Positions 602 to 22,225 of a DNA stretch of 22,849 nt are shown piece by piece. Position 1 is the first letter of the stretch; each line of letters begins with the position of its first letter. Origin of the DNA: a virus; the IMG/VR virus record IMGVR_UViG_3300017989_002520, positions 1 through 22,849 of that record; one strand, given 5' to 3'. Made by a program: the position numbers and the translations under genes. The notes under the pieces are model-generated. The model saw only the letters and a list, made by a program, of their open reading frames with translations. It was not told where the DNA came from and made no database searches.

Positions 602-787
602 GTGGATCGGGTTGAGAAGGCAGGAATTGTGCGTGAGTGGCGTCGCGTGAAGGGATATACGGTATCAGAGGCGGCAGTGCGTTGTGGAGTGACGCGTACG
701 ACGATATGGCGTTGGGAGCGAGGTAGGACAGTACCTCCGCGTCGGCGTTGGATGGAGATATTGGAGGAGTTGGTGAGGGAGTGTTGA
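602..787 (+). CDS. Small HTH (XRE/Cro-like) DNA-binding protein
   Basis: This 61-residue protein is almost all one helix-turn-helix: VSEAAVRCGVTRTTIWRWERG at about residues 21-41 (less its ends) has the Ala-Ala, Gly-Val-Thr and Trp-Arg-Trp-Glu-Arg-Gly pattern of XRE-family domains. It starts with GTG after GGGAGTGAGG at 584-593. Its TGA (785-787) overlaps the start of the methyltransferase gene, so the two are translationally coupled. A small HTH gene just before a methyltransferase and a nuclease recalls the controller (C) proteins of R-M systems, but it could equally be a general phage regulator. The DNA-binding role is firm; the target is unknown. Confidence 0.75.
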   Translation: MDRVEKAGIVREWRRVKGYTVSEAAVRCGVTRTTIWRWERGRTVPPRRRWMEILEELVREC

Positions 788-2511
788 AGCCATACTACGA
801 GGGAACGGGGATCGTGATTTATCACGGGGACTGTCGGGATGTGTCGGTTTCTGGGGTGTCTGCTGTGGTCACGGATCCGCCGTACGGGCTCAAGTTTATG
901 GGCAAGGGGTGGGACAAGGGCGTGCCCGGAACGGAGTTTTGGGGGCATATCGGGGCGAGTTGCGTGCCCGGCGCCCACATGGTCGCGTTTGGCGGTACTC
1001 GGACTCACCATCGGTTGATGTGTGCGATCGAGGATGCGGGTTGGGAGATACGAGACTGTTTGGTGTGGTTGTACGGGTCGGGGTTCCCGAAATCGTTGGA
1101 TGTGTCGAAAGCGATTGATAAGGCGGCGGGTGTGGAACGGGAAGATTTAGGAATGTCGCCAAACTGGCGTGATTCAAAACGTGATCGTGAACGATTTGGT
1201 TCAATGGAGGTTCGGGGTGACGGTGCGGGGCGTTTGACATTGGCGACGAGTACTGCTGCGAAGCAATGGGACGGCTGGGGTACGGCACTGAAGCCTGCAC
1301 ACGAAATCATCACCTTAGCTCAGAAACCCTATGATTTATGTGGCGAATGTGGCATATTGGTTCATAACTTAATGGAGGCGATATGCCAATTACCATCATA
1401 TGCGAAAACTGCGGGGCTGCTTTCGACGTTAAGCCAAAACGAGTCAGGCGAGGCGTGCGGTTCTGTTCTGTGGACTGCCGTAGAAAAGTGCAGTACACCG
1501 GGCGCTTTGTCCGCTCTGATGGATACGTTGCCGTCCGGGTCGGTGATACCTTTGAGCTTGAACATCGCGTTGTCATGGCTCGTCATCTTGGGCGACCTCT
1601 TGAAACACGAGAAAACGTTCACCACAGAAACGGCGATAGGGCTGACAACCGACTTGAGAACCTTGAATTGTTCACCATCGCCGATCACGCCAGCCACCAT
1701 CATCGAGGCCGCGACTGGTCAACCTGGCACCGAGTCAAATGCCTTACTTGTGGGTGTTACTTTCTCCGCCGTCGCCGCCAAACTGAAGCTCATCCTCGCA
1801 CGTACTGTTCAAGAGCCTGTTACCTCGTCGGAGTTCGTTCCTAACTACACGCCGATTGTGTTGGCCCGGAAGCCGTTTAGGGGCACGGTGGCGTCGAATG
1901 TACAGGAACACGGTACGGGGGCGTTGAACGTTGATGCGTGCAGGATTAAGGGACTAGAGCCTCATCATAACTATGGTCGTCCGTCGGGTAGCAACTCTTT
2001 TGTCGGTGCATCAGAAGAAGGATACAAGATGCCTTCGACCGGTCGCTGGCCCGCGAACGTGGTACTAGACGAAGAGTCGGCGGCGATGTTGGATGAACAG
2101 GCTCCAGTTGCCGGGCAGATGGCGCCATTACGGGGCACTGAGCCACGATCGAACGGTATGAGCGGTCCCGTATACGGTGAAGGTAAAGGAGCTCGCGCTT
2201 TTACGGCCCATGACGTGCCAGCCGGCGCCTCTCGTTTCTTCTACTGCGCGAAGGCGTCTCGTTCCGAGCGTGGTGGGGGGAATACACATCCCACAGTCAA
2301 GCCACTCGCCCTGATGTCGTGGCTAATTAGGCTCGTGACGCCTCCTGGTGGTCTGGTACTGGATCCGTTCATGGGTTCGGGCTCGACTTTACTGGCGGCT
2401 CAGAAACTCAATTTTCCGGTGATTGGTATCGACAACGACGAAGAGTCGTGTGAAATCGCCGTTCGTCGGCTTTCTCAGGGTGTTTTGGCCTTATCGGAGC
2501 CATCTGCTTGA
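781..2511 (+). CDS. DNA methyltransferase (N6-adenine/N4-cytosine type) with a large in-frame insertion
   Basis: Transfers methyl groups from S-adenosylmethionine to DNA. The start is taken as GTG 781, giving [18 protein letters not shown], the usual opening of this family; an ATG at 748 would add 11 unlikely residues. The catalytic motif DPPY lies at about residues 32-35, and the SAM-binding FMGSGS at about 530-535, after [10 protein letters not shown]. This order (catalytic motif before SAM motif) is that of the beta-class enzymes. The conserved run KPAHE - PIVLARKP is split by about 182 residues (bases 1306-1851). A separate HNH gene lies there in another frame, yet the methyltransferase frame stays open throughout. 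Without the insert the protein would be about 394 residues, normal for phage enzymes. Whether the long form is active is unknown. Confidence 0.85.
1383..1844 (+). CDS. HNH homing-type endonuclease nested in another frame of the methyltransferase gene
   Basis: This 153-residue protein is read in the frame one base back from that of the host gene. It has its own GGAGG at 1374-1378, four bases before the ATG, and a TAA at 1842-1844, a few bases before the methyltransferase core resumes. Two Cys pairs near the N-terminus (CENC at 7-10, CSVDC at 28-32) and CLTC with YCSRAC near the C-terminus look like zinc-binding sites. The nuclease core is [13 protein letters not shown] (59-71) followed by [19 protein letters not shown] (78-96), the HNH_3-type arrangement with His80-His81, Asn83 and Asn93. 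Such enzymes cut DNA to spread their own gene; insertion in a conserved phage gene fits this. Confidence 0.88.
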
Positions 2512-2514
2512 ATG

Positions 2515-2520
2515 TAAGAT
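2515..2520 (+). promoter_or_regulatory. Possible -10 element before the nuclease gene
   Basis: TGTAAGAT spans the end of the methyltransferase gene and the 22-base gap, repeating the TGTAAGAT at 533-540. No good -35 lies 16-18 bases upstream (TTATCG at 2491-2496 is the best). The gene at 2534 may simply be read from the upstream promoter. Confidence 0.2.
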
Positions 2521-2533
2521 AGAGGAGTGAGGG

Positions 2534-3082
2534 ATGCTTAGGGACAGGGTGAAGCCAGAGAAGTTTGAGTACGCGCGCCGTATGCGGAAGAACCCTACGC
2601 CGGCCGAGAGGGAGTTGTGGGAGTATTTGCGTTGCAAGCGTCTTGGTTTGCGTTTTGGTCGTCAGCGTATTCTTCGTGGGTATATCGTCGATTTTTATGC
2701 TCCGCAGGTTCGGTTGGTGGTAGAGGTTGATGGGCGCCATCACGTACAGGACGAGTCTGTTGTGTTGTATGATCGTCATCGTGATGGGGTTTTGGCGGCA
2801 CTGGGTATTTTGACGTTGCGGTTTTGGAATGATGACGTGTTTTCTGATGTAGAGGGTGTGGTATCGCGGATACGGGAGGTAGTGGAATCGCGCCGTATTG
2901 GCGGTGTGCGGCCGTTTGGTGGCAAGGGGTGGGGTTTGTCTTATGGGGAGGAAAACAAGCAGTTACGGGAGCAGGTGGGCGCAGCAGAGGCGTTGTTGCT
3001 AGCGTCTCGAGAGGGTGTGGATGATGAGTGGTGCGATCGTCGGGATGAGTGGTTGCGTTCGGCAGGGCGTGGTGATAAATGA
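2534..3082 (+). CDS. DUF559/Vsr-like PD-(D/E)XK endonuclease
   Basis: Residues 10-115 match the DUF559 family, relatives of the very-short-patch repair nucleases. They include ARRMRKNPTPAERELW, a Phe-Gly-Arg-Gln core, IVDFYAP (51-57) with the first acidic residue, and LVVEVDGRHH (61-70) with the E-V-D centre, then YDRHRDG, GILTLRFWNDDV and an Arg-rich end. The last 60 residues (from about 120) are outside the family and look like a charged helical tail. The start ATG has GAGGAG at 2522-2527, six bases away. It follows the methyltransferase by 22 bases, so nuclease, methyltransferase and HTH gene may form a modification unit. DNA cleavage is likely from the family; the target is unknown. Confidence 0.82.
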   Translation: MLRDRVKPEKFEYARRMRKNPTPAERELWEYLRCKRLGLRFGRQRILRGYIVDFYAPQVRLVVEVDGRHHVQDESVVLYDRHRDGVLAALGILTLRFWNDDVFSDVEGVVSRIREVVESRRIGGVRPFGGKGWGLSYGEENKQLREQVGAAEALLLASREGVDDEWCDRRDEWLRSAGRGDK

Positions 3083-3115
3083 GACAGAGGACGTGGTTTG
3101 TGGCACATCTGGGGG

Positions 3116-3144
3116 TTGATTTTGGTGTGAAACGGGGGTAGAAT
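3116..3144 (+). promoter_or_regulatory. Putative sigma70-type promoter
   Basis: TTGATT (3116-3121), a 17-base spacer, TAGAAT (3139-3144; five of six matches to TATAAT). It lies in the 110-base gap after the nuclease gene and about 49 bases before the next start codon. It probably drives the long small-gene operon that follows. Confidence 0.6.
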
Positions 3145-3192
3145 GTGACATTGGCAGCGGCTCGTACCTCTTTTTTTGGAAAGTAGGGTAGG

Positions 3193-3366
3193 ATGACGGC
3201 TAACGGGAACATCGTGGTCACGTTGACGGGGGATCGGTTCGTGGACCCACTGACGGAGAAGCAATCGATTATCGACGGGATCAGAAAGCCTTCGATCTGG
3301 GCGCGGCTACGTCGGTTCTTGTTTTACTGGCCGGTACGGTCACATAGTCGGAGTGAGTACGAGTGA
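3193..3366 (+). CDS. Small hypothetical protein (57 residues)
   Basis: Starts at ATG 3193 after AGGGTAGG and ends with TGA at 3364-3366, which overlaps the GTG start of the next gene at 3363. The product is basic in its second half, with an aromatic hydrophobic patch RRFLFYWPVR near residue 45 that could touch a membrane or a partner. It is the first gene after the promoter at 3116-3144. I do not recognise it; the coupling to the next start and the ribosome binding site support it as real. Confidence 0.6.
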   Translation: MTANGNIVVTLTGDRFVDPLTEKQSIIDGIRKPSIWARLRRFLFYWPVRSHSRSEYE

Positions 3367-3557
3367 CTGATGATGTGTTGGTGCTGGCGTGGCGTCGTGA
3401 GCTGGTTTTGACGCAGGCACAGGCGGCGGAGCTACTGGGTGTCGATCGGCGTACGTGGGTACGATGGGAGGGAGGTGGTAGGGTGACGCATGAACGCGGT
3501 GGTGAGTGTGTGTGGCGCCGGATGTTGGCGGAATTATTGGATCGGAAGGTAGCGTAG
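3363..3557 (+). CDS. Small HTH (XRE-like) DNA-binding protein
   Basis: A 64-residue protein with a clear helix-turn-helix, TQAQAAELLGVDRRTWVRWE at about residues 17-36: Gln-Ala-Ala, Leu-Gly-Val-Asp and Trp-x-x-Trp-Glu are typical XRE positions. The GTG start overlaps the preceding TGA. It resembles the HTH protein at 602 in size and pattern (Trp-Arg-Trp-Glu there, Trp-Val-Arg-Trp-Glu here), so the phage carries two small regulators, each near the front of a transcription unit. The target is unknown. Confidence 0.75.
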   Translation: MTDDVLVLAWRRELVLTQAQAAELLGVDRRTWVRWEGGGRVTHERGGECVWRRMLAELLDRKVA

Positions 3558-10826: not shown

Positions 10827-11365
10827 GACCGCCTCAGCCGCGCCTCAATTTCTTCCACCACGAACCGAGCGATACGTTGTGGATCATCCACCGCAAGGTA
10901 GCAAGCAGCTCGCTCCGGCACGCGTTGGGGGTCAAGGCGATGCTAATGCCTGGGGAGGCGAAGAAATACGCGAATTGTCGCACCTTCATGCCGGTCAGGC
11001 ACCCGTGGCAGCGCATCACGACCGCCATCATCAACACATTGGGACCGTACAAGTGCTCGTTCGCCGAACGGATCCAGCAGGAAATCCTGGGCAAAGAGCG
11101 GGTTGAGGACATCGACTGGCATGTCTGGCCGCAATGGTACGGCGCAGCTGGGTTTCGGGTAGATGATGTAATTCCATTCGAAAACCTACCCGAGCGATGG
11201 GGAGAACTGCGCGAGGAGTACGGTTTACCGCGGCTTCCCTATATCAACAAGGGCCGATCGCGGGACATTTGGCATCGACCGGACGGGGATCCGTATGACT
11301 GGTCGCCACTACTTCCTACTTACGATCTCGACTTCGGGTACTGTGAAAGGTGGAAAAAGACGTGA
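10823..11365 (+). CDS. Sulfotransferase-fold protein, copy 2
   Basis: GTG 10823 overlaps the previous TGA. The 180-residue product repeats all motifs of copy 1 at similar spacing: HRKVASSSLRHAL at 23-35, PVRHPWQRITTA at 57-68, and DIDWHVWPQW at 96-105, then IPFENL. Identity outside the motifs is low, so the duplication is old or the genes arrived separately. Copy 1 has Gly-Ser-Ser and this copy Ser-Ser-Ser in the phosphate loop. The C-terminus is longer (DIWHRPDGDPYDW). Two adjacent copies may act as a heterodimer or on different acceptors. Confidence 0.68.
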   Translation: MRPPQPRLNFFHHEPSDTLWIIHRKVASSSLRHALGVKAMLMPGEAKKYANCRTFMPVRHPWQRITTAIINTLGPYKCSFAERIQQEILGKERVEDIDWHVWPQWYGAAGFRVDDVIPFENLPERWGELREEYGLPRLPYINKGRSRDIWHRPDGDPYDWSPLLPTYDLDFGYCERWKKT

Positions 11366-11736
11366 AGTCTGAGTATCGCGACAACCCTTGTTGGGATGAA
11401 AAAAAAAGGCTTGTGCGCGAAAGGTCTGGGGGGATATGCGAGCGTTGTGGATGTCGTGAAGCTGAACACGTTCACCACCTTTGGTACAACGGTCCAATAG
11501 GTAGTGAACAGATATATCAACTACAGCACGTATGCCTGGATTGCCATGAGTTTTACCACCCGCACCGGAAATTTCGCGGTCAAAAGGCTCAACGGAAAAT
11601 CGCACGACGGCGTAAACGCAAAAACAAACCACAAAAACAACAGCCGTCTCGTGGAAAAGCAATTCAAAAAGCTCGTGCCGCATTAAAGCAAAAAGAGGCC
11701 GAGATCGACGCCCGATATGCAAAGAGGTTGGCATGA
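11362..11736 (+). CDS. HNH endonuclease (small, zinc-binding)
   Basis: The start is GTG 11362, overlapping the previous TGA and eight bases after GGTGG; GTG 11350 is an alternative adding four residues. The 124-residue protein has CERC at 26-29, EHVHHL at 35-40 with the catalytic His pair, and CLDCHEFYH at 58-66: the compact HNH fold. The last 50 residues are very basic (ARRRKRKNKPQKQ) and bind DNA. HNH proteins near terminase genes often help in packaging cleavage in phages with cohesive ends; a homing role is also possible. The gene is more AT-rich than its neighbours. Confidence 0.8.
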   Translation: MKSEYRDNPCWDEKKRLVRERSGGICERCGCREAEHVHHLWYNGPIGSEQIYQLQHVCLDCHEFYHPHRKFRGQKAQRKIARRRKRKNKPQKQQPSRGKAIQKARAALKQKEAEIDARYAKRLA

Positions 11737-13211: not shown

Positions 13212-13285
13212 GCCAGGGTAGCCCAACGGCAGAGGCGACGGTCTTCAAACGGCGTTTAGTGTAGGTTCGAATCCTACGTGTGGTA
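13212..13285 (+). tRNA. Degenerate tRNA-like element, possible UCA anticodon
   Basis: The T arm GTAGG-TTCGAAT-CCTAC is perfect, and the D region TAGCCCAACGGCAGAGGC and loop CTTCAAA are tRNA-like; TCA at 13245-13247 would be the anticodon. The anticodon stem does not pair as written (ACGGT against CGGCG), and only the outer four acceptor pairs are good (GCCA with TGGT). Its first seven bases equal those of the tRNA-Leu at 13821. It may be a decayed tRNA, perhaps hit by the HNH insertion next to it, or an unusual suppressor-type tRNA. Confidence 0.4.
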
Positions 13286-13310
13286 TGTGACTGGCAGACG
13301 TGCGCGTTAC

Positions 13311-13330
13311 GGCATACATTACAGTATGCC
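13311..13330 (+). promoter_or_regulatory. Inverted repeat spanning the HNH start codon
   Basis: GGCATAC (13311-13317), six-base loop ATTACA, GTATGCC (13324-13330). The ATG at 13326 lies in the 3' arm. In RNA, the hairpin would hide the start codon; in DNA it could be an operator or cleavage site. Confidence 0.5.
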
Positions 13331-13817
13331 TAAACAACGGAAGTACACCGAAGAGATACTTGCGCCAATAGTGGCTCGGTGCACGACAATGGCGGAGGTT
13401 TGTAGGGAATTGGGGGTAGCGACCAACTCCGGTGGGACGCACTCTTATATCACTAAAAGAGTGAGAGAGTACGAACTGGACACATCGCACTTTCTCGGGA
13501 AGGCCCACCAAAAGGGAAAGCCGGGCCGCAAGTTCGATCCAGCGCAATTCAAAGAAATACTCGTGCGAGATTCGAAGTACACCCGATGTCACCTCAAGCG
13601 GCATCTATTAGAAGAGGGGCTACTAGAAAACACATGCTCTCTTTGCGGACTTACAGGGGAGTGGCACGGCAAGCCGTTGAGGATGGTTCTCGACCACGTC
13701 AACGGCGACGGCAGAGACAATCGACTCGAAAACCTGCGGATGCTGTGCCCGAACTGCAACAGCCAGCAGCCAACGTTTTGCGGTAGAAAGAACAAGGGTC
13801 GAGCGCGGAATTGGTAA
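13326..13817 (+). CDS. HNH endonuclease inserted in the tRNA array
   Basis: The 163-residue protein has an N-terminal HTH-like region (TMAEVCRELGVATNSGGT, about 21-38) that probably reads DNA, a basic linker (KGKPGRKFD), and a C-terminal HNH domain. CSLC lies at 104-107, LRMVLDHVNGDGRDNRLENL at 118-137 with His124 and Asn132, and CPNC at 141-144. This family is widespread in phages and commonly sits between genes. ATG 13326 avoids overlap with the tRNA-like element; a GTG at 13278 would overlap it. No ribosome binding site is seen and the start lies in a hairpin, so expression may be restrained. Its TAA is followed within four bases by the next tRNA. Confidence 0.85.
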   Translation: MPKQRKYTEEILAPIVARCTTMAEVCRELGVATNSGGTHSYITKRVREYELDTSHFLGKAHQKGKPGRKFDPAQFKEILVRDSKYTRCHLKRHLLEEGLLENTCSLCGLTGEWHGKPLRMVLDHVNGDGRDNRLENLRMLCPNCNSQQPTFCGRKNKGRARNW

Positions 13818-14235: not shown

Positions 14236-14307
14236 CGTCCCCGCCCCGTCCGTTTTAAGTTGGGTTGTGAAGCGTGCCGAAGGACTAACTGGCGAAAGAG
14301 AACCCAC

Positions 14308-15276
14308 ATGGTGAAGATGCCCCTCACGTCGATTGAACTTTGCTCGGGTGCCGGGGGCCAGGCCCTCGGCCTTGAGCGTGCGGGCTTCGTTCACGAAGCG
14401 ACCGTCGAGAATGATCGCTGGTGCTGTGAGACGCTACGTGCGAACCGGCCCACCTGGAACACGCTCGAGATCGACCTGCGCATGTTTCGCGGCGACGACT
14501 ACCGAGGTGCCGATCTTGTGGCTGCGGGGCTTCCGTGCCCTCCGTTTTCGATTGCAGGGAAGCAGTTGGGCCGCGATGACCAACGCGACCTCTTCCCGGC
14601 AGCACTCACGGTCATATCCGAGGTACGGCCCCGGGCCGTGATGATAGAAAACGTCCGCGGCTTCGGCTCCGCGAAGTTCGAGAACTACCGAACGTGGTTC
14701 GAGCGCCATCTAGCGAAGCTGGGTTACAAGACAGTGTCACACATCCTGAATGCGAGTAGTTTTGGTGTGCCACAACTTCGGCCAAGGTTCATTCTAGTTG
14801 GCCTGCGAGCACGTGACCTTGCCCGGTTCTCGTGGCCCAACGGAAAGAGGTGTGGGCCGCCGACCGTCGGAGGCGTACTCCGCCGTGCAATGGCAAGCAG
14901 GGGCTGGCCGGGGGCTACCGAATGGGCGAAGCGTGCAAACGCCATCGCCCCTACTCTTGTCGGTGGGTCCAAGAAACACGGCGGGCCTGACCTGGGACCG
15001 ACACGCGCCCGGCGCGAGTGGGCGGAGCTGGGAGTGGACGGCCTCGGTATCGCCGACGAGGCTCCCGGTCCGGATTTTCCGGTCGATGCCCAGCCCCGGC
15101 TCACGGTGGAGATGGCGGCGAAGCTACAGGGCTTTCCGTCCGACTGGTTCTTTGCGGGGGGCAAGACCGCGGCGTACCGGCAGGTAGGGAACGCATTTCC
15201 GCCGCCGGTTGCGGAAGCGGTGGGTACGCGCCTGGCCGACGCCATAGGAGCCCACTCAAAGCAGAGGGCAGTATGA
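14308..15276 (+). CDS. C5-cytosine DNA methyltransferase
   Basis: Methylates cytosine at carbon 5 in a specific DNA site. The 322-residue enzyme has motif I IELCSGAGGQALGLERAGF at 9-27, motif IV GLPCPPFSIAG at 74-84 with catalytic Cys77, motif VI ENVRGF at 114-119, motif VIII QLRPRFILVG at 156-165, and motifs IX-X near the end (RLTVEMAAKLQGFP, YRQVGNAFPPPVA). The target-recognition region lies between VIII and IX. ATG 14308 follows a weak AAAGAG; upstream codons are not conserved. Its TGA overlaps the ATG of an HNH nuclease gene, the layout of a type II R-M system. The gene is clearly more G+C-rich than the phage genes (44 of 60 bases at 14341-14400). Confidence 0.92.
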   Translation: MVKMPLTSIELCSGAGGQALGLERAGFVHEATVENDRWCCETLRANRPTWNTLEIDLRMFRGDDYRGADLVAAGLPCPPFSIAGKQLGRDDQRDLFPAALTVISEVRPRAVMIENVRGFGSAKFENYRTWFERHLAKLGYKTVSHILNASSFGVPQLRPRFILVGLRARDLARFSWPNGKRCGPPTVGGVLRRAMASRGWPGATEWAKRANAIAPTLVGGSKKHGGPDLGPTRARREWAELGVDGLGIADEAPGPDFPVDAQPRLTVEMAAKLQGFPSDWFFAGGKTAAYRQVGNAFPPPVAEAVGTRLADAIGAHSKQRAV

Positions 15277-15845
15277 GCCCAAAGACTAGAAGTGGTAAAG
15301 AGAAGATCCGCCGGTTCCTCTGTGCCAATGTCGGGCGCGTCATTGAGTCCCATGAGATCCAAGAGGCCGCGGGTGGTGCGGTGCAATACAGCCGCCGTCT
15401 ACGCGAGCTACGGGAGGATGAGGGATGGAAGATCCTCTCGCATCACGATAGCACAAGTCTTAAGCCTGGACAGTACATGGTCCGGGAACCGCCACCAACG
15501 TTCGACATCCCCAAGGTCGCACGTAACATCTCTGCGAAGCTCAGGGCGCAGGTACTCGACCGCAATGGGTTCACATGCCAGATGTGCGGGCTCACCCCAG
15601 GCGACGTCGACCCGGCCACGGGACGCAAGGTGCGGCTCCACATCGGTCACATCAAAGACAAGAGCCTTGGCGGCAAGGACGAACTATCCAACCTGCGCAC
15701 CCTGTGCTCTACCTGCAATCAGGGCGCGAAGAACATCACTAGCGAGAAGCCGAGCACCATTTGGCTTCTGTCGCAAGTCAGACGCGCCGGGATCGAAGAA
15801 CAAGAAGCCGTCTTCAAGTGGCTGCGTGGTAAGTTTGGCTCGTAG
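15273..15845 (+). CDS. HNH nuclease, probable type II restriction enzyme
   Basis: ATGA overlap with the methyltransferase gene. The 190 residues comprise an N-terminal winged-helix-like part (KEKIRRFLCANVGRVIESHE, QYSRRLRELREDEGWKI) and a C-terminal HNH domain: CQMC at 102-105, RLHIGHIKDKSLGGKDELSN at 121-140 with His126 and Asn140, and CSTC at 145-148. This architecture, directly after a C5 methyltransferase and before a Vsr gene, is found in bacterial R-M systems of HNH type. The cut site cannot be told. Restriction of competing phage DNA or of host DNA is an inference from context. Confidence 0.8.
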   Translation: MSPKTRSGKEKIRRFLCANVGRVIESHEIQEAAGGAVQYSRRLRELREDEGWKILSHHDSTSLKPGQYMVREPPPTFDIPKVARNISAKLRAQVLDRNGFTCQMCGLTPGDVDPATGRKVRLHIGHIKDKSLGGKDELSNLRTLCSTCNQGAKNITSEKPSTIWLLSQVRRAGIEEQEAVFKWLRGKFGS

Positions 15846-15846
15846 C

Positions 15847-16290
15847 GTGACCTACCGGCCAAAGCCCCGGCACGAGATTGCCCGCAACATGTCAGCCATC
15901 AGGTCAACGGGCAACCAGACAGAGACTGCCCTCCGCAAGCTTGTTCACCGCCTCGGCTACCGCTACCGCAAGTACGCCGCAGATCTGCCCGGCACGCCGG
16001 ACTTTGTGTTCCCGACCGAGAAGGTGGCCGTATTCGTGGACGGTGATTACTGGCACGGGCGGCTGCTGCGCGAACGTGGCCCTGGGGTGGTGCGCGAGCG
16101 CATGAAGACACCCAACAAGGACTACTGGATCGGCAAGTTTCAGCGAAACACCGAACGTGACACCTTGGCGACGGAGGCGCTGGAAAGCAAGGGATGGACC
16201 GTCCTCCGTTTCTGGGAGTCTGATGCGGGTCGCGACATAGAAGGTACGGCACGGCGTATCATCCGGACCATTGAAGCCCGGCGGCGCTAA
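15847..16290 (+). CDS. vsr: Vsr-type very-short-patch repair endonuclease
   Basis: Nicks DNA at T:G mismatches that arise when 5-methylcytosine deaminates, as the partner of a C5 methyltransferase. GTG 15847 follows the nuclease stop by one base. The 147-residue protein is of normal length, with RNMSAIRSTGNQTETALRK (13-31) including Glu26, LPGTPDFVFP (47-56) with catalytic-type Asp52, VAVFVDGDYWHG (60-71) with the Trp-His pair, NKDYWIGKFQRN (90-101) and GWTVLRFWESD. The zinc-binding cysteines seen in many Vsr proteins (CFWHGC) are replaced here (DYWHGR). It completes the island. The gene shares the high G+C base use of its two neighbours. Confidence 0.88.
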   Translation: MTYRPKPRHEIARNMSAIRSTGNQTETALRKLVHRLGYRYRKYAADLPGTPDFVFPTEKVAVFVDGDYWHGRLLRERGPGVVRERMKTPNKDYWIGKFQRNTERDTLATEALESKGWTVLRFWESDAGRDIEGTARRIIRTIEARRR

Positions 16291-21445: not shown

Positions 21446-21474
21446 TTGACAAACAGCCTGCCATCTACTAAGAT
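21446..21474 (+). promoter_or_regulatory. Strong promoter right after the capsid gene
   Basis: TTGACA (21446-21451), exactly 17 bases, TAAGAT (21469-21474). It starts at the first base after the capsid stop codon and 50 bases before the HNH start, so it most likely belongs to the inserted HNH gene. Confidence 0.65.
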
Positions 21475-21509
21475 TGGTGGAAGCACATACTGTGTCTACA
21501 TCATCTTAG
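21468..21509 (+). promoter_or_regulatory. Inverted repeat in the HNH gene leader
   Basis: CTAAGAT (21468-21474) and ATCTTAG (21503-21509) are perfect 7-base inverted repeats; between them CACA-TAC-TGTG (21484-21494) forms a small inner hairpin. The right arm ends next to the ribosome binding site AGAGG at 21511-21515, so a transcript from further upstream could fold and hinder HNH translation, while one from the local promoter would lack the left arm. Confidence 0.4.
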
Positions 21510-21523
21510 CAGAGGCGGGCCAG

Positions 21524-22225
21524 ATGGAAGAAAGAAGAGAGGAATGGCGGGATGTATCGAGGTGGCCGGATCATGAGGTTTCAAGCTTGGGGCGTGTGCG
21601 ACGCAAACTGTCTAACGACCGTATGCCTGGGCACGTCCTCAAGCAAAACACTCGGGGGGATGACTATCTCTACGTTGTCTTCCGGGTCCGTGTGCATGCC
21701 TTGGTTGCCGAGGCGTTTCATGGGCGCCCGCCAATTAAGGGACAGGTCGTCAACCACAAAAATGGAATCAAGTCCGACAACCGTCCAGAAAATTTGGAAT
21801 GGGTCACGGAGGCCGAAAATACCGCCCATGCTTACGCGATTGGGCTGCATAAGCGTGGCGCAGGTCATGGCCGCGCTAAACTCACTGATGCTCAAGTCGT
21901 GGAGATCCGTGAGCGGTATCAAGGGCAATGGGGTTCGCAGTCTGCGTTGGCCAAGGAGTATGGTGTTTCGCAGGGGCTCATTAGCCAGATTGTCAAAGGC
22001 GAAGTCTGGACGCATTTGCCAGTTGGTGATGTCGGTTTTTCGGGACGGCGACCCTTTGGAGAAGATCATCCTAGCGCCACCGTCACAGAGTCTGACGTTA
22101 GGGCTATTAGGGCGGAAGCTGCGGCAGGTGGTGTCAGTAATCGACAGATCGCAAAGAAGTACGGTGTCAGCCACACGACGGTTCGTCGAATCGTCGATCG
22201 GCAGACCTGGAAACACGTCACTTAG
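21524..22225 (+). CDS. HNH homing-type endonuclease with duplicated HTH modules
   Basis: ATG 21524 follows AGAGGCGGGC; a TTG at 21446 is inside the promoter and is rejected. The 233-residue protein has a NUMOD4-like start (EEWRDVSRWPDHEVSSLGRV), then an HNH_3 core: VHALVAEAFHGR (about 56-67), QVVNHKNGIKSDNRPENLEW (about 73-92) and ENTAHAYA. Two similar C-terminal repeats follow, each with an HTH: SQSALAKEYGVSQGLISQIV then VWTHL, and SNRQIAKKYGVSHTTVRRIV then TWKHV. These are the DNA-reading parts. Insertion between two virion genes with its own promoter and terminator is typical of freestanding homing endonucleases. Confidence 0.88.
   Translation: MEERREEWRDVSRWPDHEVSSLGRVRRKLSNDRMPGHVLKQNTRGDDYLYVVFRVRVHALVAEAFHGRPPIKGQVVNHKNGIKSDNRPENLEWVTEAENTAHAYAIGLHKRGAGHGRAKLTDAQVVEIRERYQGQWGSQSALAKEYGVSQGLISQIVKGEVWTHLPVGDVGFSGRRPFGEDHPSATVTESDVRAIRAEAAAGGVSNRQIAKKYGVSHTTVRRIVDRQTWKHVT

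Follow-up and report, generated by a model that had tools for sequence, protein, structure and literature searches.

How can a phage gene accommodate a second, complete gene at a conserved site of its protein and still be read from end to end? This question is raised by a locus in a metagenomic phage contig (IMG/VR virus record IMGVR_UViG_3300017989_002520, positions 1 to 22,849; the whole stretch of 22,849 nucleotides is called the window here), in which a gene for an HNH endonuclease lies in a second frame of a DNA methyltransferase gene. Selfish genes within genes are usually explained by splicing, while the comparisons presented below point to a third way, that of staying readable in the host frame and using another one. 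With a probability of about 0.85, we assign the insert to the published ShiLan-domain class and interpret it as a mobile gene of the HNH homing type, which occupies the conserved ALKPAxE/P site of a phage N6/N4 methyltransferase and does not depend on splicing. The features of the locus are as follows.

781..2511, plus strand: N6/N4 DNA methyltransferase, beta-class (permuted), host gene, read through the insert (PF01555, E 1.9e-25)
1306..1851, plus strand: insert of 182 codons with 0 stops in the methylase frame, as compared with the empty sites of Moldemort, Mahavrat and Shauna1
1306..1332, plus strand: diverged target-motif copy carried by the element, IITLAQKPY; nested inserts have it, as E-x4-A-x-K-P, at their 5' end
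1333..1373, plus strand: host-frame linker between the motif copy and the HNH ribosome-binding site, part of the non-overlapping 5' region that is constrained in the methylase frame
1374..1378, plus strand: Shine-Dalgarno sequence GGAGG of the HNH gene, 4 nt before the ATG, lying in the methylase-frame 'MEA'
1383..1844, plus strand: HNH endonuclease gene (153 aa) with two CxxC zinc fingers around an HNH_3 core (PF13392, E 3e-12), frame-shifted relative to the methylase
1852..1878, plus strand: original (downstream) copy of the target motif, PIVLARKPF, modeled as a beta strand (residues 358-363, local pLDDT about 93)

The Methylase Gene Remains Open Across the Insert

The methylase open reading frame (748-2511) comprises 587 open codons with a match to Pfam N6_N4_Mtase, and translation likely starts at the GTG at 781. 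Its motifs DPPY (874-885) and DPFMGSGST (2362-2388) are kept in an alignment of 40 sequences, in which the catalytic DPPY and DPF.GSG motifs are still conserved in the nested copies. A first-pass annotation, made from the sequence of the window alone, had described an insertion of 546 bases, a multiple of three, with the host frame open for 182 codons. Recomputing the coordinates gave the same result, with KPAHE ending at 1305, PIVLARKP starting at 1852 and a stop-free methylase frame between them. The alignment of interrupted with uninterrupted homologues that had been suggested as a check identified empty sites in the mycobacteriophages Moldemort, Mahavrat and Shauna1, and the window copy sits at the insertion site ALKPAxE/P (ALKPxxE/P) of the methylase family. 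The empty allele of Moldemort reads ALKPAFEPIVVARKPLAGTV, and the occupied allele of Murica reads ALKPSYEPVCVAMKPYGV...[HNH]...TAFEPIVVARKPLAGTV.

A DUF559 endonuclease-like gene (2534-3082; PF04480, E 4.5e-30) is located directly 3' of the nested methylase, and three further HNH genes are found at 13278-13817, 15267-15845 and 21446-22225, of which the third also has a NUMOD4 motif and an HTH. An additional stretch at 11350-11736 appears HNH-like by eye and has no Pfam match at E<=0.001. At 14260-16290, a C5-cytosine methylase, an HNH endonuclease and a Vsr mismatch endonuclease follow each other in an arrangement resembling a restriction-modification cassette.

The HNH Gene and Its Translation Start

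The claim that the insert contains a complete HNH gene with its own ribosome-binding site in another frame was borne out by the HNH_3 open reading frame and the GGAGG in front of it. The HNH frame is offset from the methylase open reading frame by 635 (mod 3 = 2), a phase shared with the compared phages, and the Cys and His columns of the protein, including the CxxC pairs, are invariant among aligned relatives. The predicted structure (pLDDT 90) has its best PDB fold match in I-HmuI (1u3e, E 0.065, prob 0.94); at the sequence level, the HNH profile retrieved just weak zinc-finger matches from the PDB.

For the mycobacteriophage elements, a GTG located 18 bp into the insert has been proposed as the HNH start, with leaderless initiation, since no ribosome-binding site was detectable (Arsenault 2025, PMC11855218). 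In six of eight mycobacteriophages that we checked (Pollywog, Murica, Starcevich, Bipolar, OwlsT2W and Filuzino), an in-frame stop codon lies 15 codons upstream of a downstream GTG, so that translation in these phages cannot begin as far upstream as has been published. The downstream GTG is preceded by GGAGG at a distance of four bases, and its position aligns with the HNH ATG of the window. Across the nested loci, a Shine-Dalgarno-like site was present at the HNH start in 33 of 50, whereas other starts of that phase predict 3.6, and 17 of 50 lacked a clear one. Together, the upstream stops and the frequency of these sites suggest that the HNH protein is more likely initiated from a Shine-Dalgarno site, encoded in the methylase frame as LEA, LED or MEA, than by a leaderless mechanism.

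Distribution and Mobility of Nested Copies

A search for other methyltransferases with the same in-frame segment, proposed with the original claim as a way of checking it, was productive. With tblastn against annotated phages, we detected 10 with this arrangement, identical in site and relative frame, the Mycobacterium phages Pollywog, Murica, MISSy, Starcevich, Bipolar, Totinger/Mantra, OwlsT2W, ShiLan and Filuzino and the Cylindrospermopsis phage Cr-LKS3. In the phage regions fetched, the annotated methylase coding sequence is continuous across the insert and the HNH start minus the methylase start, mod 3, equals 2. The methylases of ShiLan and Starcevich also carry a separate intein-like insertion elsewhere in the gene. 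Scanning viral contigs with an HNH profile revealed dozens more copies at the same methylase site and one on a bacterial MAG contig (L175), and a full nested copy was not found in plasmid searches. The resulting set contains about 55 distinct nested copies with a GC content of 28-67% (58 rows including three near-duplicate pairs, after removal of two mis-sorted free-standing loci, L153 and L158, which account for all 6 stops in the unfiltered nested table).

Some loci deviate from this arrangement. One contig (L129, around 1800-3400) carries the HNH gene with only the C-terminal half of the methylase, in an open host frame, and the upstream sequence is a C5-cytosine-methylase-like open reading frame instead of the N-terminal half, so that the locus is either a chimera or a natural split. 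In another (L137, 2300-3356), an HNH gene of the same family occupies a neighboring methylase site, after GSGFPKSH and before GTSLKPAWEP, with the methylase frame open. Six further methylase inserts (L151, L160, L162, L164, L167 and L171) contain a more distantly related HNH gene and a longer 5' segment in an open host frame, and possibly represent a second clade of such elements.

Pairs of inserts were found to be 92-99% identical while the flanking methylase sequences were only 47-83% identical (e.g., Murica/Pollywog and Cr-LKS3/L127), values that come from related copies, the window copy having no close relative. Such near-identical inserts in diverged methylases indicate that the inserts move, and phylogenetic tests for mycobacteriophages point the same way (Gosselin 2023, PMC9957025). 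From this distribution and divergence we infer that the HNH element is probably capable of homing.

Stop Codons Are Avoided in the Methylase Frame

In about 55 distinct nested copies the host frame contains no stop codon, compared to 80-85 expected under synonymous codon shuffling, a conservative null that keeps codon usage, and about 370 expected when codons are redrawn from base composition. In contrast, free-standing HNH relatives carry 86 stops in the corresponding frame versus 84.5 expected. The third frame of the nested set contains about 500 stops, and nested copies at 31-41% GC have 14-24 stops in the third frame and none in the host frame. Avoidance is apparent at the level of individual codon contexts as well. 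In the HNH frame, CTG or GTG before A occurs in 0 of 258 cases in nested copies versus 34 of 91 in free-standing ones, and ATG before A in 0 of 128 versus 8 of 49, while CTA or GTA in nested copies is absent before a purine (0/763) and present before a pyrimidine (33/393). For the window alone, the probability of zero stops is about 0.06 under synonymous shuffling and <1/300 under the composition redraw, so that the single locus is suggestive and the proof rests on the family.

A recount of the window HNH codons (Leu: CTT 6, CTC 2, TTG 1; Val: GTC 7, GTT 5, GTG 3; NTG before A, 0) agrees with the codon pattern from which selection for a readable host gene had initially been proposed, namely nine Leu codons with none ending in TA and six CTT, mostly GTC or GTT for Val, and no NTG before A. 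The statement that neighboring genes use GTG and TTG freely also holds, those reading frames having 2-14 stops when read with the corresponding frame offset. Homologues with the methylase frame closed in the insert, named by the first-pass annotation as counterexamples, amounted to 0 of about 55 distinct nested copies. The proposed selection is thus upheld by the comparison of nested with free-standing genes, together with the constraint on the 5' linker described below.

Amino Acid Constraint and the 5' End of the Insert

Constraint in both frames, which had been suggested as a further check, was found in part. The HNH frame is under purifying selection (pN/pS 0.22-0.27), with substitutions concentrated at HNH third positions. 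In the HNH overlap, host-frame pN/pS was 1.09, a value from pairs that are not independent. When only HNH constraint and stop avoidance were simulated, values of 1.3-1.7 were obtained, and the addition of half-strength host constraint lowered these to 0.86. Since the observed value lies between the two, host-frame amino acid constraint in the overlap is weak. Likewise, strong amino acid conservation across the whole host-frame insert was looked for among relatives and not found, the conservation there being only weak. In one case (L038/L136), a nonsense codon breaks the HNH frame and leaves the methylase frame intact.

The part of the insert that does not overlap the HNH gene differs in this respect. 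Among related inserts, pN/pS of this 5' region was 0.43 when read as methylase, whereas the two other frames gave 1.49 and 0.81. This difference implies translation of the insert as part of the methylase and is the clearest sign of it. A GILVHN string at 1351-1368, intein-like by eye, was rejected, as related inserts do not conserve it. The insert opens with IITLAQKPY, a diverged version of the PIVLARKPF that follows the insert, so that the target motif is duplicated, as in the other nested loci compared. This likeness of the first 11 amino acids to the sequence after the site has been published and discussed as a possible group I intron hint (PMC11855218). Because no intron was found, we read the motif copy as element-borne coding sequence, which may either restore the last part of the N-terminal methylase domain or protect the occupied allele from being cut. 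In an AlphaFold model the insert is of low confidence and the downstream motif copy is placed in the sheet, the input alignment having favored this copy.

Alternative Explanations and Proposed Mechanism

GC-rich codon usage of HNH genes could leave the frame open by chance, as the shuffling P of about 0.06 for the window alone would allow. We give this explanation virtually no weight, since copies at 28-45% GC are also stop-free in the host frame while their third frame has as many as 24 stops, and free-standing relatives carry the expected stops, a comparison that refutes it. It is very improbable that the insert is an unrecognized self-splicing intron or an intein and its open host frame incidental, although the disjunct distribution, the conserved insertion site and the group I intron hint mentioned above would fit such an element. 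An Rfam scan of the window from 700 to 2700 gave no match to an intron RNA structure at E<=1, a Pfam scan of host-frame 1306-1854 gave no match to a Hint splicing domain at E<=1, and no Hint or intein domain was recognized by Pfam in the methylase open reading frame. Moreover, an intron would need neither absolute stop avoidance nor a linker conserved in the host frame. The initial suggestion that the element is tolerated through dual coding rather than as an intron or intein is therefore retained. Somewhat less improbable, but still unlikely, is that the frame is kept open just for the coupling of transcription and translation, avoiding polarity, and that the long methylase is inactive. The weak constraint on host-frame residues in the overlap and the reported non-essentiality of the methylase (PMC11855218) are in line with this. 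However, the catalytic motifs are still conserved in nested copies, translation of the HNH gene would itself cover the mRNA, and the 5' linker is constrained in the host frame.

For the favored splicing-free HNH element, we propose that the HNH gene has invaded the conserved site of the phage methylase. One frame supplies it with a separate start, Shine-Dalgarno site and stop codon, and the methylase frame passes through stop-free, giving a long, probably disordered insertion in the methylase. The element brings along the diverged motif copy and a methylase-frame-conserved linker at its 5' end. The HNH protein may nick or cut empty alleles, with homing to follow, the long methylase is presumably made and active, and the motif copy may help to keep the methylase folding or block self-cutting. 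As a broader interpretation of these sequence comparisons, it seems somewhat more plausible than its opposite that such elements are widespread splicing-free homing elements in phages of many hosts, which persist via dual coding, with the motif patch and conserved linker, an internal Shine-Dalgarno-started nuclease and an active host enzyme.

Comparison With Known Systems

Among solved structures, HNH homing endonucleases of the I-HmuI type provide the best fold match, and the predicted structure shares with them an HNH core together with DNA-binding modules. The gene for I-HmuI resides in a group I intron, whereas the insert in the window shows no intron in the Rfam scan. Inteins with homing endonucleases likewise constitute an open in-frame insertion at a conserved protein site, but the host-frame product in the window is without a Hint domain, and the nuclease is encoded in the other frame with its own start and stop.

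The closest known system is the ShiLan domain, a hidden out-of-frame HNH described in phage DNA methylases, mainly of mycobacteriophages, ten or so of which were the first reported carriers (Gosselin 2023, PMC9957025; Arsenault 2025, PMC11855218), and phage ShiLan itself was among the matches of our annotated-phage search. The window element shares with it the host gene family, the site, the relative frame, the two-zinc-finger HNH, the open host frame and the resemblance between the start of the insert and the residues that follow the site, and the related nested copies share its disjunct distribution and movement between diverged methylases. ShiLan and its relatives have a GGAGG before the downstream GTG, just as the window HNH ATG has a clear one. 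In contrast, the window HNH, which stems from the contig of a metagenomic phage, shares about 44% identity with its mycobacteriophage counterpart. By sequence comparison, we regard the element as a new, divergent member of a class whose kind is already known. The large set of copies turns a report on a few mycobacteriophages into a testable system, in which constraint is measurable in both frames, and suggests an internal ribosome-binding site instead of leaderless initiation. Compared to the published work, our analysis extends the breadth of the family, proves dual-frame selection statistically, identifies a 5' linker conserved in the host frame and corrects the HNH start.
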